Of a DNA stretch of 64,000 bases, positions 7,164-64,000 are shown piece after piece. Both the position numbers and the translations under genes were made by a program. The notes below the pieces were generated by a model. That model saw only the letters and a program-made list of their open reading frames with translations, was not told where the DNA came from and searched no databases. This stretch comes from an uncultured Glaciecola sp. (GTDB lineage Bacteria; Pseudomonadota; Gammaproteobacteria; Enterobacterales; Alteromonadaceae). Every line of letters starts with the position of its first letter. The first letter of the stretch is position 1. The DNA lies in NCBI GenBank assembly GCA_905479945.1, contig CAJQOP010000048.1:1-64000 (forward strand), read 5' to 3'.

Positions 7164-8461
7164 GTGACCGCCTGTTTTCGGTTAAACTCAGCTTGTTTGT
7201 ATTTTTCAGACAGCATAATTGCGCTTAGCTTTTCAACGCTAACAAAAAGCTGATGAAAACTCAAAAACGTCGGCGAAAAGCCAAAGCGAATAATGTCGGG
7301 GGCTCGAAAGTCGGCAACCACTCCCTCAGAAATCAGAGCCTGACACAAGGCATATGCGGCGGGATGCTTGTAAGCAAGTTGAGAACCGCGATTTTCTGAG
7401 CTTAGTGGTGATGCCAGTGTTAGGCCACAAAGCACATCGGTTTGTGCGACTAAGCGCTGAAAAAAACAAGTCATAGCAACTGATTTTTCGCGCACTTGTT
7501 CCATATTCACTTGCTCAAAAACATCTAGTGCGGCATTTAAGACCGACATTGAAATAACACTTGGCGTGCCGCTCAAAAACTTTTTAATCCCTGCATCAGC
7601 TTTATATCCGGGTTCAAACGTAAATGGGTTCGCATGCCCCATCCAACCCGTAAGCGGCTGCTTTAATGATGTAATATGTTTATTTGCAGCATAAATAAAT
7701 GCCGGTGCACCTGGCCCACCGTTCAAATACTTATAGCCACAGCCAACTGCAAAGTCTACTTGGCATTCATCAAGTTCAACATGCACAGCACCCGCACTAT
7801 GAGCAAGATCCCAGATCACTAACACACCTTGCTTATGGGCCAACTGCGTTAGTTTTTGCATATCGTGTATTTCGCCTGAACGAAAATTAACATGGGTAAG
7901 CATAAGTACAGATATCTCATGACCTTGCTGCTCTAGTACTGACTCTATTTGGTCTGCACTGCAGGTTAGTAGGCTGCACTTATGTGAACCAAACATTTGT
8001 TCTAGCCCCTCAACCATGTACAAATCAGTTGGGAAATTATCCTGCTGCGACAGCACTTTATGGCGAGTAGGCCCATTCATTTGCAGCGCACTAGCTAAAA
8101 CCTTAAACAGATTGACGGAAATAGAGTCACAGCAAATAACTTGTCCATGTTTTGCGCCAATTAGTGGGGCTATCTTATTGCCAACCGTGATGGGGAGATC
8201 TATCCACGCATGTTTGTTCCAACTTGTTATAAGATCTTGGCCCCATTGTCTTTCAACAACATCAATAGCCATCTTTTTTGCAGAAATCGGAAGAGGTCCT
8301 AAGGAGTTCCCATCGAGATAGACAACGCCTTGAGGAATATCAAATAAGGCTATTGCATGCGCTATCGGGTCTTCTTTGTCTAATTCAATAGCATGACCTT
8401 CTTGTAATTTTGGGTCATTTGACAATGTATAATGAGATTGAGTGCTATCTTTTATCAGCAT
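7160..8461 (-). CDS. kynU: Kynureninase
   Basis: PLP enzyme that cleaves L-kynurenine to anthranilate and alanine (EC 3.7.1.3), 433 aa, normal length. Family motifs are visible: VVYLDGNSLGPLP near 46-58, the NFPTDLY segment near 142-148, the PLP-phosphate region HVNFRSGEIHD near 190-200, WDLAHSAGA near 217-225, and the Schiff-base lysine K244 in CGYKYLNGGPG. Cytosolic. Directly upstream on the same strand lies a formamidase-like hydrolase, so these two cover the formylkynurenine to anthranilate steps; tryptophan dioxygenase is not in the window. Confidence 0.93.
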   Translation of the reverse strand: MLIKDSTQSHYTLSNDPKLQEGHAIELDKEDPIAHAIALFDIPQGVVYLDGNSLGPLPISAKKMAIDVVERQWGQDLITSWNKHAWIDLPITVGNKIAPLIGAKHGQVICCDSISVNLFKVLASALQMNGPTRHKVLSQQDNFPTDLYMVEGLEQMFGSHKCSLLTCSADQIESVLEQQGHEISVLMLTHVNFRSGEIHDMQKLTQLAHKQGVLVIWDLAHSAGAVHVELDECQVDFAVGCGYKYLNGGPGAPAFIYAANKHITSLKQPLTGWMGHANPFTFEPGYKADAGIKKFLSGTPSVISMSVLNAALDVFEQVNMEQVREKSVAMTCFFQRLVAQTDVLCGLTLASPLSSENRGSQLAYKHPAAYALCQALISEGVVADFRAPDIIRFGFSPTFLSFHQLFVSVEKLSAIMLSEKYKQAEFNRKQAVT

Positions 8462-58155: not shown

Positions 58156-58222
58156 TTAGTTGAAAACTGAATATGTGGAATTTAAAAATCACATGAAATT
58201 TCAATTTACGAGAGAAAAGCAA

Positions 58223-58984
58223 ATGACAATTAAAAAATTAGCCGCGGTTTTATTGGGAAGTATAGTTGCTATCTCTTCAGCGCAAGCAGCACTTATAAGT
58301 TCAAACATCGCCTACGGCGCAGCAAATGCAGCAGCAGCAGAAACTGCTTTTTTAGATGGCTCTTTGAGTTACGAAACAGAAGATTTCAGTAGTTTTGGTA
58401 TTGATATGACTTCAGTTTTAACCGGTACTCAGCAAGAAATGTATATCAGAAGCCAGCCTTCATTCTCTACCATCGCTGGAACTTTTACGGTTTTAGAAAA
58501 TGCTAGGAATGATAGCGGGGAAGTAAATCCAGATAATTTGATGATCGAAAGCATCGCAACTGGTGAGTTTGGTCGTGACATTTCAAAGGCCGCTAACGAT
58601 TTTTGGTTAGACAGCAATGACACACGCCAGGTAACTTGGGATTTAGCCGGAGTAAACGGTAGTTATGATAGCTTAGGTTTTTACCTTATTGATGCAAACG
58701 ACAATGGCGCTCGTTTAGTACTTCGTTATAGCGGTGGCACAAGTGAAGACATCGCACTAAATTACAGCTTGCCAAACGGTAACGTAGCTTACATTAGCGT
58801 TTTTGCAGACACGTCAATATCAACAGCGTCCATTGTTTTTGATAATAACGGCGACACAGATCGCAATACTAACGATGGCTGGGCAATTGACAACGTTACA
58901 GTTGCTAAAGTTCCAGAGCCAACTGCTATTGCAATATTTGCTCTTGGTCTACTAGGATTAGTTGCCGCTCGCAAGCGTCTATAA
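58223..58984 (+). CDS. PEP-CTERM sorting-domain protein
   Basis: 253 aa from the ATG at 58223 (GAGAG upstream; the ORF-track TTG lies in front of the signal peptide). Signal peptide MTIKKLAAVLLGSIVAISSA. The body is a beta-rich, Asn/Asp/Ser-rich domain (DTRQVTWDLAGVNGSYDSLG, DNNGARLVLRYSG). The C-terminus is a canonical PEP-CTERM tail: VPEPTAIAIFALGLLGL followed by VAARKRL. Such proteins are processed by an exosortase and tied to exopolysaccharide; the exosortase is not in the window. Ends with a strong terminator. Confidence 0.88.
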   Translation: MTIKKLAAVLLGSIVAISSAQAALISSNIAYGAANAAAAETAFLDGSLSYETEDFSSFGIDMTSVLTGTQQEMYIRSQPSFSTIAGTFTVLENARNDSGEVNPDNLMIESIATGEFGRDISKAANDFWLDSNDTRQVTWDLAGVNGSYDSLGFYLIDANDNGARLVLRYSGGTSEDIALNYSLPNGNVAYISVFADTSISTASIVFDNNGDTDRNTNDGWAIDNVTVAKVPEPTAIAIFALGLLGLVAARKRL

Positions 58985-59035: not shown

Positions 59036-59249
59036 ATGTCCGCTTATTGCTAAATGTAAGGTCTTATCTTTGTACTTTCCCTGAAAAGTACTGCTTACCG
59101 CCTGTTCTAGCATCGTTTCCACAAAAGTGTGATAGTAAAAATTTGTAATAAATTTTTACATCTTACTTTTTAAACTTAACAACCTTTCTTGATTTATGTA
59201 CGACTATAAGTATGCGACTAATCGCAATAACTTAATTCTCGGAGTCATA

Positions 59250-59627
59250 ATGAATATTTCTAAAGTAAAAGTACTACTCGTAGCCTTAGCACTTACCACT
59301 GCAAACTTAGCAAGTGCAGGCGATAGCCTAACATACGTAGCAAGTGACAATTCAATTGAAAGCAAGCTTTGTGTAGCCGCTGCAACGGCCTCAAAAACCC
59401 GCGTGAATACTATAGTCAAACAAGTATCATCGACTAAACTTACGCGTAAAAATTACACGCTAGTTGCCAATGAACTTAGCTGTAACGGGATTAACATTGC
59501 TGACTTCGCAGCGCAGGCAGGCAACATTGCAGTTGCTAACAAGTTAAAGTCATATCGTACTAAGAATGTAGAAATTCGTGATATAGCGTCTACCTTTACT
59601 GGCAGTGTAAGCGTTAGCGGCGAGTAG
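59250..59627 (+). CDS. DUF3718 secreted protein
   Basis: 125 aa from the ATG at 59250, five bases after GGAG. Signal peptide (NISKVKVLLVALALTTANLA, cleavage near ASA-GD). The mature part has a conserved-looking Cys pair (SKLCVAAATASKTRVN and NELSCNGINIADFAAQ) typical of DUF3718 proteins of marine gammaproteobacteria. Function unknown. Followed by a nested hairpin region. Confidence 0.75.
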   Translation: MNISKVKVLLVALALTTANLASAGDSLTYVASDNSIESKLCVAAATASKTRVNTIVKQVSSTKLTRKNYTLVANELSCNGINIADFAAQAGNIAVANKLKSYRTKNVEIRDIASTFTGSVSVSGE

Positions 59628-59823: not shown

Positions 59824-61659
59824 CTATTTTGAAGATGAAAAAATAGGCTCGACGTTTTTGATCCATTCCAATGGCCATTCTAGAGTAGCAAAATGTTCCA
59901 GCTTTGACCTTGATTGTGCCGATTTTCCTGTCAGGATATCGATTTTTGCTTCCACTAAAATCAATCCAGGAATGACATAATTCACTGTCTGAAATTTTTC
60001 CATCTGTAGGGTCAGTGATTGCATCATTTTTTGATAGCCAAGCTGATTGTTTGCCTGCTGATAACAGTCAGCCATATTGGCTAGATGTGATATCCCCCAG
60101 GCTGCTACGTTAAATTTTCCGTGTAATTCAAAATCGTCTAGTAGAACCGACTCATATAATGGCATGGACGCAGAGCAATCACCTGCAAAATAATAATTCA
60201 GTGCCAAAACCAAAATGACTGACTTGTTTTTCGGCCATTTTTTAGCAGTAGACTCAAGCTCTAACAACCATTCTTCATGGGTTTCCTTTTGCATATTAAT
60301 CAGCGTTTTCAACTGTAGCTCCAAGTAACCACCGCCTCCATAAGTGGCAATTTGATTTTGCAGACTGTCAGCCTTTTCAACGTTTCCTTGCCAAAGCGCA
60401 TCCGTGGATTCAGCGGTTATCCAATAGATATTGTTATCGGCTAATTGTTTCTTTGCTGCCAGCATATGCTTTTGGACTTTTTGTGGCTGGTTGATAAAAC
60501 GATAAAAGTTGGCGATCCCCAAATGACACGCAGGATAGTCAGGAAGCAGCGCCACACAATGCTCAAATTGTTTTAATGCGTCATTGAGCTGACCCGTAAT
60601 AAATAACGAGTCTGCAACGGCAAAGTTAGTAATGGCAGACATTGGATTTCTGGCCAGGGCAATTTGAAAATGATCCAATGCTTGTTCATGTTTGTCTTGC
60701 AGCCATAACAAATAACCATAATTGTGATGGGCTAGATGTAAAGCTGGATCCAAATTGAGAGCCGTAATGAAAGCTTCTTCCGCTTCGGGAAACGCCCTAT
60801 AGTTTAAATGCAGCAGTCCTTGTGCAGTGTGTGCTAGTGCCAAAAAGGGGTCGACCTCCAATGCCCGATCTATAGCAGCTTGGGCAATGTCGCGCGCCTG
60901 GGCTGATGGGATAACTCGATACTGAAATAGCACCATGGTATTTAGTGCAATAGAGACATGTGCAAGTGCATAATCCGGTTGTAACTCAACTGCAGTTTCA
61001 AATTCTTGTATGGCCTTTTTACTATATTCAACGGTGGCTTTGGCTGCCATGGCATTTCCACGTAAATAATGCATGTAAGCATCGCCATGCTGCGGATGTA
61101 TTCGAAGTTTTCCAGCAGGAATTTGCGCGTAGTCTGGTAACAAAGAATCTACAATTGATAGACTAATATCCTGTTGTAATTTAAAAACCTCATTTTCGGT
61201 AAAATCAAATACTTTGGACCACAAATGTGTACCCGTTGTTGCCTTGATTAACTGAATGGTAACTCTTAACTGGTCTCCTGACTTCCTGATAGAGCCTTCC
61301 AAAACAAATTGGCTATTGAGTTTATTAGCAATGGTTTTGACATCCAGGCCTTTATCTCTGAATGCAAAAGAGGATGTTCGCGAAACAACAGCTAACTCAG
61401 GGATCGCAGTCAATTGATGGATGATTTCTTCTGACAAGCCATCAGCAAAGTAACTTAAATTCGGTTCTGAATCGTAAACATCAAAGGGCAAAACAGCAAT
61501 CGAAGGCTGCATAACAATTTCTGCTGAAGGAGTACTCTTTTCCTCACTCGGTTTGTTAACCCAATAAGCCATCATTGAAATAACAACAATGAAACTGATA
61601 CACACAATAGCGATAGCTTGCCATTTCAAGTTCTTGGTTCTAGTACGGAGTTCTTGCAA
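59824..61659 (-). CDS. Membrane TolB-like/TPR part of the broken regulator
   Basis: 611-codon open frame from a TTG directly after the TAA. It has a membrane helix (about 13-33, WQAIAIVCISFIVVISMMAY), a TolB/FlgO-like region with IAVLPFDVYDSEPNLSYFAD (about 54-175), and about eight TPR units (190-520; ALAHTAQGLLHLNYRAFPEA, LHLAHHNYGYLLWLQDKHEQ). The long intact frame shows that this part has decayed little. No ribosome binding site is clear at the TTG, so independent translation is doubtful. Confidence 0.6.
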   Translation of the reverse strand: MQELRTRTKNLKWQAIAIVCISFIVVISMMAYWVNKPSEEKSTPSAEIVMQPSIAVLPFDVYDSEPNLSYFADGLSEEIIHQLTAIPELAVVSRTSSFAFRDKGLDVKTIANKLNSQFVLEGSIRKSGDQLRVTIQLIKATTGTHLWSKVFDFTENEVFKLQQDISLSIVDSLLPDYAQIPAGKLRIHPQHGDAYMHYLRGNAMAAKATVEYSKKAIQEFETAVELQPDYALAHVSIALNTMVLFQYRVIPSAQARDIAQAAIDRALEVDPFLALAHTAQGLLHLNYRAFPEAEEAFITALNLDPALHLAHHNYGYLLWLQDKHEQALDHFQIALARNPMSAITNFAVADSLFITGQLNDALKQFEHCVALLPDYPACHLGIANFYRFINQPQKVQKHMLAAKKQLADNNIYWITAESTDALWQGNVEKADSLQNQIATYGGGGYLELQLKTLINMQKETHEEWLLELESTAKKWPKNKSVILVLALNYYFAGDCSASMPLYESVLLDDFELHGKFNVAAWGISHLANMADCYQQANNQLGYQKMMQSLTLQMEKFQTVNYVIPGLILVEAKIDILTGKSAQSRSKLEHFATLEWPLEWIKNVEPIFSSSK

Positions 61660-61902
61660 TTACTGTACTTGTTGACCCAGTCGATATCCTTTTTTGGGTA
61701 CAGTGAGCAGATATTTGGGTTCCTGCGGGTTGTCCTCCAAAACTTTGCGCAAATTGGCAATTAAATTATAGAGGACATGATCAGCAATGATCTGATTTTT
61801 CCAGACTGCACTAAAAATGTCATCACGCGAGACCAATTGGCCATCAGCCTTAGCCAAAACTAATAATACATCCATTGCTTTGGGTTCAAGCTTTGGGTTC
61901 AA
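61660..61902 (-). pseudogene. Winged-helix fragment of the broken regulator
   Basis: An 80-codon frame that starts inside the 13-bp duplication. It carries most of a winged-helix DNA-binding domain (VSRDDIFSAVWKNQIIADHV, LIANLRKVLEDNPQEPKYL, then VPKKGYRLG) and stops at the TAA. It lacks the first strands of the domain, which lie upstream in another frame. Confidence 0.75.
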
Positions 61903-61904
61903 GC
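61879..61904. repeat. 13-bp tandem duplication that shifts the frame
   Basis: TTTGGGTTCAAGC occurs twice head to tail, without mismatch (61879-61891 and 61892-61904). Thirteen is not a multiple of three, and its position explains the frame break in the winged-helix gene. Confidence 0.92.
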
Positions 61905-62059
61905 TTTATCTTCTGTTTACCGTCAGATACATAACAATCATCCGGAAAACACTGCCATTTACCCATGTAGAAGTCATCTGCCATTGGAATCCTTTTCAAT
62001 TGTCGCAATGCACCTAAACATCACTATAGCATTTGTAAATTGGCTTTCCATTTGTTTAT

Positions 62060-62087
62060 CCATAGCTTTCCCATAGTTTTTCCATAG
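62060..62087. promoter_or_regulatory. Three CCATAG direct repeats, 11-bp spacing
   Basis: CCATAG begins at 62060, 62071 and 62082, exactly one helical turn apart, in the gap between the broken winged-helix gene and the PKD lipoprotein gene. OmpR/PhoP-type winged helices bind such in-phase direct repeats, so it is a candidate site for the adjacent regulator or a paralogue. Confidence 0.5.
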
Positions 62088-62161: not shown

Positions 62162-64000
62162 ATGCGACTTTTAAAAGGATGTTTTAACCCATCAGCTCAG
62201 CTCAACAATCTAGTTTTGATTACGAGACTTAGTCTATCAATCTTCATTTTACTCTTGGCATCGGGCTGCAGTTGGCTAGATGGTAAAGACAAGAGCGAGC
62301 CACCTGCGGTAATTGCAGAAATAGCGCCTCAAGCACAGTTTAGTGTGGCTGTTCAATCTGGAAAAGCCCCACTGGTCGTTGTATTTACGGATACATCTCA
62401 AGCTGGCTCATCTTCGATTACTTCTTGGCAATGGGATTTTGGCGATGGTGGAACCAGCGCATTACAAAACCCCCAATACACTTTTGAAATACACGGTACT
62501 TACACAGTTACGTTAACTGTAAGCTCGGCGGATGGAACTGACACCTCAAGCCTAGCAGAAGCTGTTGTAGTAGCTCCGGCAGATACAACAACAAAAATCA
62601 CGGTAGTTGGAGTAAGGGGATTTCCAATAACGGATGTTACTGCTAGTTCCAGTACTTTTGAAATTATTGATCAAAATAATAACGAGCTTGATCAGTTTGA
62701 AATTATTCTGACATCGAACTCCGAATCAGGTGTCATTCGAATAAGCAAGGAGGGATACATAGATGGACTCCTTCACTTACAAAACAGTGAACTAGACCAA
62801 ACCAAAGTATTAACACTGCTAGATAGATTGCCCCCAATCAAAGTAGACGCGTTAATGGGTGGTGAATATATTGGAATAGATGGCGCTACAGTAGTGCTTC
62901 CCGAAGAAGCATTTGTTAATGCCAATGGTGAAAGTGTTACTGGCACTATAGATTTGTATATCACGCCCGTTGATATTTCTGACGAGTTAAAAATTAAAGC
63001 ATTCCCTGGAAGTTTTTACGGTATGCCCGATGAAAGCACCATTCCCGCCGGTGAAGATTTGCAACAACAGTTGTTTTCCTTTGGTGTTGCAGCATTTTCA
63101 TTCTACCAAAATGACGAAAAGTTACAGTTAAAAGACGGTCTTAACGCTGAGCTGAAATTACCGATTTACGCGTCGAAGGATATTTACGATGAGGATTTAG
63201 TCATTGGCGGTGTTATTCCAATGTGGATTTTAGATGAAGAAACCGGTGTTTGGGTGCAAGAAGGCCAAGGAACAATAATAGCTAATCCGCTAGTTGCCTC
63301 AGGGTTTTCGCTAAAATCCTCAACCACTCATTTCACTTGGTTTAATACAGATATATGGGCTTACTCTCCCAGTGGTGCAGGCGGTTCCGGTTCATCCGTA
63401 GGCCCTGGCAGTTGTCGACTAACAATCACTATAATTGGCGCAGTAGAAGATGAATATTTGAGCTTTTCATTAACCAATGGTTTCGTTTCGACAGCTAGAT
63501 CTACTTTGACACAAAACATACTTTGGGATAGTTTTCCGATTGAGACTAGCATTCCCGTTGGAGCGCTTATCTCTGCTGTCGTAACACAAGGAGAGAAAAC
63601 CAAACAGCAGAACCTGTTGTGTTTTGAGGCTAATGCTTCGGTAGAAATCATATTGGAAGAAGCCGCTCCTGAATTTGTTACTTGGAACTTAGAAGCGCTG
63701 CCTGTTTTTAATAGGGAAACCCCAAATGACCCTTACACAATAATTTCAAATGACATTATTATTGGCGGTCACTTCATCAATACCAGCCAGGTTGAAGTTG
63801 AGTCTTCGCTTGTAGTCAACAGCCCATTTAGCTTGCTTAACCGACGATATAAAAGAGGAGTTGTTTTTTTAGAGACGGATCCTAGTCCTACGATCATCAG
63901 AGCTGTTTTATCGAATGATTTTGGACAAGATGAAAGAGTTACTCCAATTGAATATATTGCCGAACACTCACCTTTACTCGCGTATTTTTATGTTGTGCCA
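62162..64000 (+). CDS. PKD-domain lipoprotein, partial at right edge
   Basis: Open for 613 codons from the ATG at 62162 (AAGGAG eight bases upstream) to the window end, so the C-terminus is missing. It is absent from the ORF track because it has no stop in the window. Lipobox LASGC near residue 37. A PKD domain follows (about 55-140) with the typical SWQWDFGDGGTSALQNPQYT and GTYTVTLTVSS. Beyond it are beta-rich segments and a GAGGSGSSVGPG linker. A surface or periplasmic lipoprotein, perhaps for carbohydrate or protein binding. Confidence 0.82.
   Translation, partial: MRLLKGCFNPSAQLNNLVLITRLSLSIFILLLASGCSWLDGKDKSEPPAVIAEIAPQAQFSVAVQSGKAPLVVVFTDTSQAGSSSITSWQWDFGDGGTSALQNPQYTFEIHGTYTVTLTVSSADGTDTSSLAEAVVVAPADTTTKITVVGVRGFPITDVTASSSTFEIIDQNNNELDQFEIILTSNSESGVIRISKEGYIDGLLHLQNSELDQTKVLTLLDRLPPIKVDALMGGEYIGIDGATVVLPEEAFVNANGESVTGTIDLYITPVDISDELKIKAFPGSFYGMPDESTIPAGEDLQQQLFSFGVAAFSFYQNDEKLQLKDGLNAELKLPIYASKDIYDEDLVIGGVIPMWILDEETGVWVQEGQGTIIANPLVASGFSLKSSTTHFTWFNTDIWAYSPSGAGGSGSSVGPGSCRLTITIIGAVEDEYLSFSLTNGFVSTARSTLTQNILWDSFPIETSIPVGALISAVVTQGEKTKQQNLLCFEANASVEIILEEAAPEFVTWNLEALPVFNRETPNDPYTIISNDIIIGGHFINTSQVEVESSLVVNSPFSLLNRRYKRGVVFLETDPSPTIIRAVLSNDFGQDERVTPIEYIAEHSPLLAYFYVVP

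Follow-up and report, generated by a model that had tools for sequence, protein, structure and literature searches.

The CadC protein of E. coli has a cytoplasmic winged helix of the OmpR type, one membrane helix and a periplasmic sensor part. In the HilA/EilA family the winged helix is followed by a TolB/TPR-like region; HilA itself is cytoplasmic. ToxR is a membrane-anchored winged helix. CadC sites are AT-rich, with TTAxxxxT arranged head-to-head (PMC5430869), and the ToxR tox-box is a direct repeat, TNAAA-N5-TNAAA (PMC8517210).

The locus described here lies in a window of 64,000 nucleotides (the whole stretch of DNA that was analysed) from an uncultured Glaciecola sp., the genome of which (G000) is a 132-contig assembly of 4.03 Mb with 90.5% completeness. 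The window copy is a broken member of the ToxR/CadC-like membrane-anchored one-component regulators. The unbroken protein would consist of a cytoplasmic winged helix of the OmpR/CadC type, a single membrane helix and, in place of the CadC sensor part, a TPR sensor part. Among solved structures, the window winged helix is closest to CadC (PDB 5ju7, E 8e-16), which is also the best NCBIfam model over it; the equivalog cut-off of 400 bits is far above the scores of the window piece (67) and of an intact orthologue (112). As in the HilA/EilA family, a TolB/TPR-like region follows the winged helix, and NF009037 matches residues 149–465 of the intact orthologue (score 102/589 bits); in contrast to HilA, the regulators here have a membrane helix. 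We regard the locus as probably a very young pseudogene of such a regulator, with a duplication and a stop codon acquired in this lineage, the predicted operator and the partner gene intact, and the duplication forming part of a genome-wide excess.

Two lesions in the regulator gene

The pieces of the gene in the window are as follows.

61889–61984, minus strand: 5' piece of the regulator, 32 codons from the ATG; its translation aligns with residues 1–32 of the intact orthologues
61877–61902, plus-strand coordinates: exact 13-bp tandem duplication, GCTTTGGGTTCAA twice, followed to 61907 by part of a third copy (GCTTT)
61660–61902, minus strand: remaining winged-helix (Trans_reg_C) stretch in the shifted frame, ending in a TAA at 61660–61662 (PF00486, 4e-18)
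59824–61659, minus strand: 611-codon frame with the membrane helix, a TolB/HilA-like segment and the TPR sensor part (from Pfam TPRs and orthologue identity)

The start codon is the ATG at 61984–61982, with AAAAGGATTCC upstream. The 5' piece reads MADDFYMGKWQCFPDDCYVSDGKQKIKLEPKA and then meets a TGA (61888–61886) within the tandem repeat; this stop arises from the frame shift caused by the duplication. After the shift, the frame stays open from 61902 to 61663 through what remains of the winged helix, up to the TAA, and a TTG directly after the TAA opens the 611-codon frame (61659–59824). Pfam places Trans_reg_C on the first part of the regulator and the TPRs on the second. In intact form the winged helix is joined to the periplasmic sensor by the single membrane helix; in the window copy the TAA comes between the two. 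The sequence-only reading had described a regulator gene at 59824–61984 that is broken twice, and both lesions are present in the sequence; the end at 61984 is right, and 59824 belongs to the stop codon of the 611-codon frame. Its statement that the remainder carries no further lesion also holds, as the scan of the 611 codons found the frame uninterrupted. The two lesions are about 230 bp apart and differ in kind, one being a duplication of 13 bp and the other a stop in frame; neither is a homopolymer indel. Perfect tandem repeats with a unit longer than 10 bp are absent from six Markov copies of the window (6 × 64 kb, 384 kb in total), so the 13-bp repeat is not a product of chance.

Orthologues and age of the loss

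Orthologues with single intact frames are found in G021 (68% identity), in an uncultured Paraglaciecola MAG (G375, 67%), which for this gene is the closest of the named relatives in the collections, in G127 (56%) and in G007, a member of the same genus (50%). More distant intact single frames occur in G212, G016, G177, G176 and G352. The orthologues of 714–733 aa that are 67–68% identical are stop-free and carry one copy of the 13-mer; for the 611-codon frame the identities are 68% to G021 and 67% to the Paraglaciecola MAG, and these two nearest orthologues are 64% identical to each other. By inspection, the intact orthologues hold the winged helix, membrane helix and sensor part in one frame. 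A second copy of the 13-mer is absent from every orthologue whose DNA was inspected, and neither a frame interruption nor either of the window lesions was found in any of them. The comparison with close relatives proposed by the sequence-only reading thus places the TAA and the duplication in no relative, and since the intact orthologues have a single 13-mer and no stop, the decay is lineage-specific. Readthrough or recoding at the TAA was considered and set aside; this stop occurs in no relative, and the idea finds no support. In the Paraglaciecola orthologue (L053), AAAGCTTGAACCCAAAGC occurs once and a 5-bp direct repeat, AAAGC...AAAGC, 13 bp apart, is there already; the slippage-competent repeat therefore predates the duplication. 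A search of viral contigs gave no other copies of the regulator. Other proteins of G000 lack a closely similar winged helix, the best matches being 39% and 36%.

The window protein has diverged no faster than its intact relatives. At sites invariant in the other four close copies it carries 6 changes; the corresponding figures for the nearest two intact orthologues are 17 and 10. A first branch model with a single omega gave 0.13 for the window branch versus 0.064, which is not significant (2 delta lnL 3.3), and the difference was removed by a site-class model. When the codon model was given three site classes and, for the window branch, a final neutral segment, the optimum was a neutral segment of 0, and about 0.011 substitutions per site cost 1.9 lnL; the identical test on two intact copies brackets the window result. 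Synonymous sites are saturated between species, and this figure, which comes from the model only, is a bound and not a date. Under the model, neutral change since the loss would amount to at most about 1% per site. A random substitution in the gene produces a stop in about 5% of cases, and a single TAA is therefore expected within such a short neutral time. The codon model rejects long-standing decay. The suggestion that the decay is recent is borne out by the orthologues, all of which are intact with one copy of the 13-mer, and by the upper bound near 0.011 per site; a loss that is recent on the evolutionary scale is well supported by this comparison of coding sequences. The gene has two lesions only, both absent from orthologues, and in Salmonella 346 of 378 pseudogenes carry one lesion, recent loss being typical of bacterial pseudogenes (PMC2916853). 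By itself, the regulator is an ordinary young pseudogene.

The absence of relaxed evolution would also be expected if both pieces were still made and useful, that is, if the gene had been split by re-initiation into two proteins that still cooperate, one with the winged helix and one with the membrane helix and TPRs. Both frames are open and conserved, an ATG stands about 10 nt after the TGA, and the TTG directly follows the TAA. However, the re-initiated winged helix would be without its first ~32 residues (the N-terminal strands), no clear ribosome binding site precedes the TTG, and a split form was found in none of the relatives. We give this arrangement very little credence. For the young pseudogene that we prefer, the course of events would include slippage at the pre-existing 5-bp direct repeat, duplicating 13 bp and shifting the frame after codon 32. 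The stop codon would have arisen in the linker before the membrane helix, and the lesions may have come in either order; either alone would part DNA binding from membrane sensing.

Predicted operator and partner genes

Two features lie on the upstream side of the regulator.

62060–62087, minus strand: predicted operator CTATGGAAAAACTATGGGAAAGCTATGG, three CTATGG repeats with an 11-bp period; the pattern is found upstream of orthologues
62162–64000, plus strand: divergent partner gene for a 700-aa PKD-domain lipoprotein, intact; on the contig it continues beyond the window, to 64261

The pattern CTATGG-N5-CTATGG-N5-CTATG(G), a triple 11-bp direct repeat, is located between the regulator and the lipoprotein gene. 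The repeats also occur upstream of four intact orthologues, exact in G021, G127 and G007 and with single-base changes in the Paraglaciecola MAG, at 90–103 bp from the start in all four. The position (−90 to −103) is kept in five loci, the divergent neighbours of which differ. Among 399 genomes of the family, the exact pattern occurs only in G000, G021, G127 and, twice, in G007, with one mismatch in the MAG. Single-mismatch matches elsewhere in the family were set aside, their frequency being about that of a reversed-pattern control. The second G007 site (G007:C5:252870) has no adjoining regulator and precedes a paralogue of the divergent partner of the G007 regulator; for this reason we read the repeats as the operator of the regulator, acting on the partner. 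The partner gene at that site (L105:6998-9034; G007:C5 252997-255033), a second DUF11-type gene with a CTATGG operator, has an in-frame stop near 7430. In the recognition helix, the five copies with the operator have one and the same stretch, ADHVLYNLIANLRK, from which the four other aligned copies, all without the operator, deviate. Operator and recognition helix could both track phylogeny rather than form a binding pair. The conservation of these operator-like repeats agrees with binding and regulation of a neighbouring promoter but is no proof of it. The triple CTATGG repeat is the predicted operator of the regulator, and in the window it is still intact. Like the ToxR tox-box, it consists of direct repeats about one helical turn apart and would be bound by a membrane-anchored winged helix; it differs from the tox-box in motif (CTATGG), period (11) and copy number (three). 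It also differs from the head-to-head CadC sites in being an 11-bp direct repeat.

The partners differ among relatives. The divergent pair of regulator and PKD lipoprotein is also present in G176. In G021, G127 and G007 the partners are a DUF11 protein (Pfam), with a C-terminus that by inspection is possibly dockerin-like, and a small protein that is probably of the PEP-CTERM kind; the partner in the Paraglaciecola MAG is a PEP-CTERM protein. The pairing of one operator with several kinds of surface protein suggests that partners have been exchanged under a switch that stayed the same. A literature search for a link between such a regulator and PEP-CTERM or dockerin proteins found nothing on point.

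Some further genes were seen at or near these loci. On the 3' side of the regulator, the window encodes a PEP-CTERM protein (58160–58984) and a DUF3718 secreted protein (59196–59627); a homologue of the DUF3718 gene, at 71% identity, occurs in G008 without the regulator. A homologue of the PKD lipoprotein in G020 (L074:5621-7816; G020:C56) contains an in-frame TAG, and a regulator homologue was not found in that genome. To the right of the lipoprotein gene (G000:C48 67000-81258; L059 5500-19759) lie RHS-type fragments, apparent IS21-type transposase genes and recombinase-like genes, which suggests that this region is mobile or variable.

In the intact relatives, the protein probably binds the three 11-bp-spaced CTATGG repeats and controls the divergent surface-protein gene; activation would match CadC. 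As the operator and partner gene remain intact, the partner in the window has probably been uncoupled from its signal, with the predicted operator left unoccupied. What gives the regulator its value is the timing: at no more than about 1% neutral divergence since the loss, a predicted operator and an intact partner are still in place beside it. The conservation of the operator and the excess of duplications across the genome merit further work.

Tandem duplications across the genome

In 936 kb of G000 there are 52 perfect tandem duplications whose unit is 10 bp or longer (10–28 bp); a sample of 1,115 kb from twelve congeners and G021 has 12, giving a rate ratio of 5.2 (p 8e-9). The G000 census is a sample, 0.94 of 4.03 Mb, made up of the window and loci L059, L107-L112, L128-L147 and L168-L187. 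An earlier, smaller comparison with three congeners had given a 12-fold excess. Units of 7–9 bp are not enriched in G000. The unit lengths peak at 12, 15, 16 and 18 bp, with the 16-bp unit in eight intergenic cases. The repeats extend beyond two copies by a median of 5 bp (a mean of 0.7 is expected for plain copying), and 71% extend by at least 3 bp; this suggests either slippage between short direct repeats or additional partial copies.

The duplications in genes respect the reading frame. Sorting by spanning ORF, as done first, disfavoured frame-breaking cases, and the flanks were then inspected individually; on this basis the unit is a multiple of three in 23 of about 25 duplications in genes and in 7 of 27 outside (Fisher p 1e-6), three arrays in a single gene (L131) not being independent. 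The two exceptions in genes are the 13-bp copy in the regulator, which is the clear one, and L174:1431, a possible case that may lie at a gene boundary. One in-frame duplication that was checked falls in a variable protein tail, and the congeners are without the repeat. The respect for the frame within genes speaks for the G000 duplications being real and having been exposed to selection. This bears on the possibility that assembly or sequencing error produced one lesion or both and that the gene is intact in the organism. Many pseudogenes in draft genomes are artefacts, and assembly error can create them (PMC11017572); G000 is a draft of 132 contigs with 90.5% completeness, and its regulator gene shows no relaxed evolution. 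However, an error would have had to produce two different lesions within ~230 bp, neither a homopolymer indel, and noise would not give short duplications that respect the frame elsewhere in the assembly. We regard an artefact as unlikely.

The sequence-only reading had also offered the duplication as a reversible switch. In such a switch, slippage in copy number would toggle the DNA-binding part. The repeat is exact, its unit is not divisible by three, it lies at codon 32 and its partial third copy would allow slipping back; the remainder of the gene is preserved. This idea is not supported and was dropped as the leading one. The TAA at 61660–61662 lies outside the repeat and would stay in place after loss of a copy, leaving a soluble winged-helix piece of ~110 residues with neither membrane nor sensor part, which makes a switch unlikely. 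The site has only two full copies here and a single copy in all orthologues inspected (repeats in none of the relatives), and similar duplications are scattered across the genome at many unrelated sequences. Phase variation is accordingly a most improbable account of the repeat. The 13-bp copy does not look like a dedicated switch but like one of the products of slippage throughout the genome.

We tentatively propose, at somewhat less than even confidence, that the lineage has or had a duplication-biased process, slippage between 3–14-bp direct repeats giving 10–19-bp head-to-tail copies, at several times the level of its congeners. The duplication in the regulator would be one of about 200 events, the rest having been filtered by frame, and the cause would be neither topA R168C nor a lost Pol I 5' nuclease. 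No arginine or active-site substitution was found in TopA of G000, where the stretch QQARRFLDR is intact; two changes, I561V and P767T, fall at otherwise invariant columns. In the N-terminal two thirds of PolA no obvious defect was found, the 5' nuclease region being conserved with a linker insertion only. That insertion in the G000 polA gene (L191) is lineage-specific, about 27 residues long, and contains a PVSLS repeat. Second type IA topoisomerase (topB-like) genes with one in-frame stop each were seen in two other genomes (G008:C5:117096, L243; G010:C6:155198, L245).

The closest known system for this excess is the E. coli topA R168C mutator, which gains many head-to-tail duplications of 2–19 bp (PMC6954433). 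G000 resembles it in having gained many head-to-tail duplications. The topA R168C duplications are independent of existing repeats, whereas most of those in G000 seem to have direct end repeats or a further partial copy. The duplication-biased mutator described so far is this laboratory topA mutant (PMC6954433); if the frame-filtered excess in G000 were confirmed in strains or reads, it would represent a natural one.
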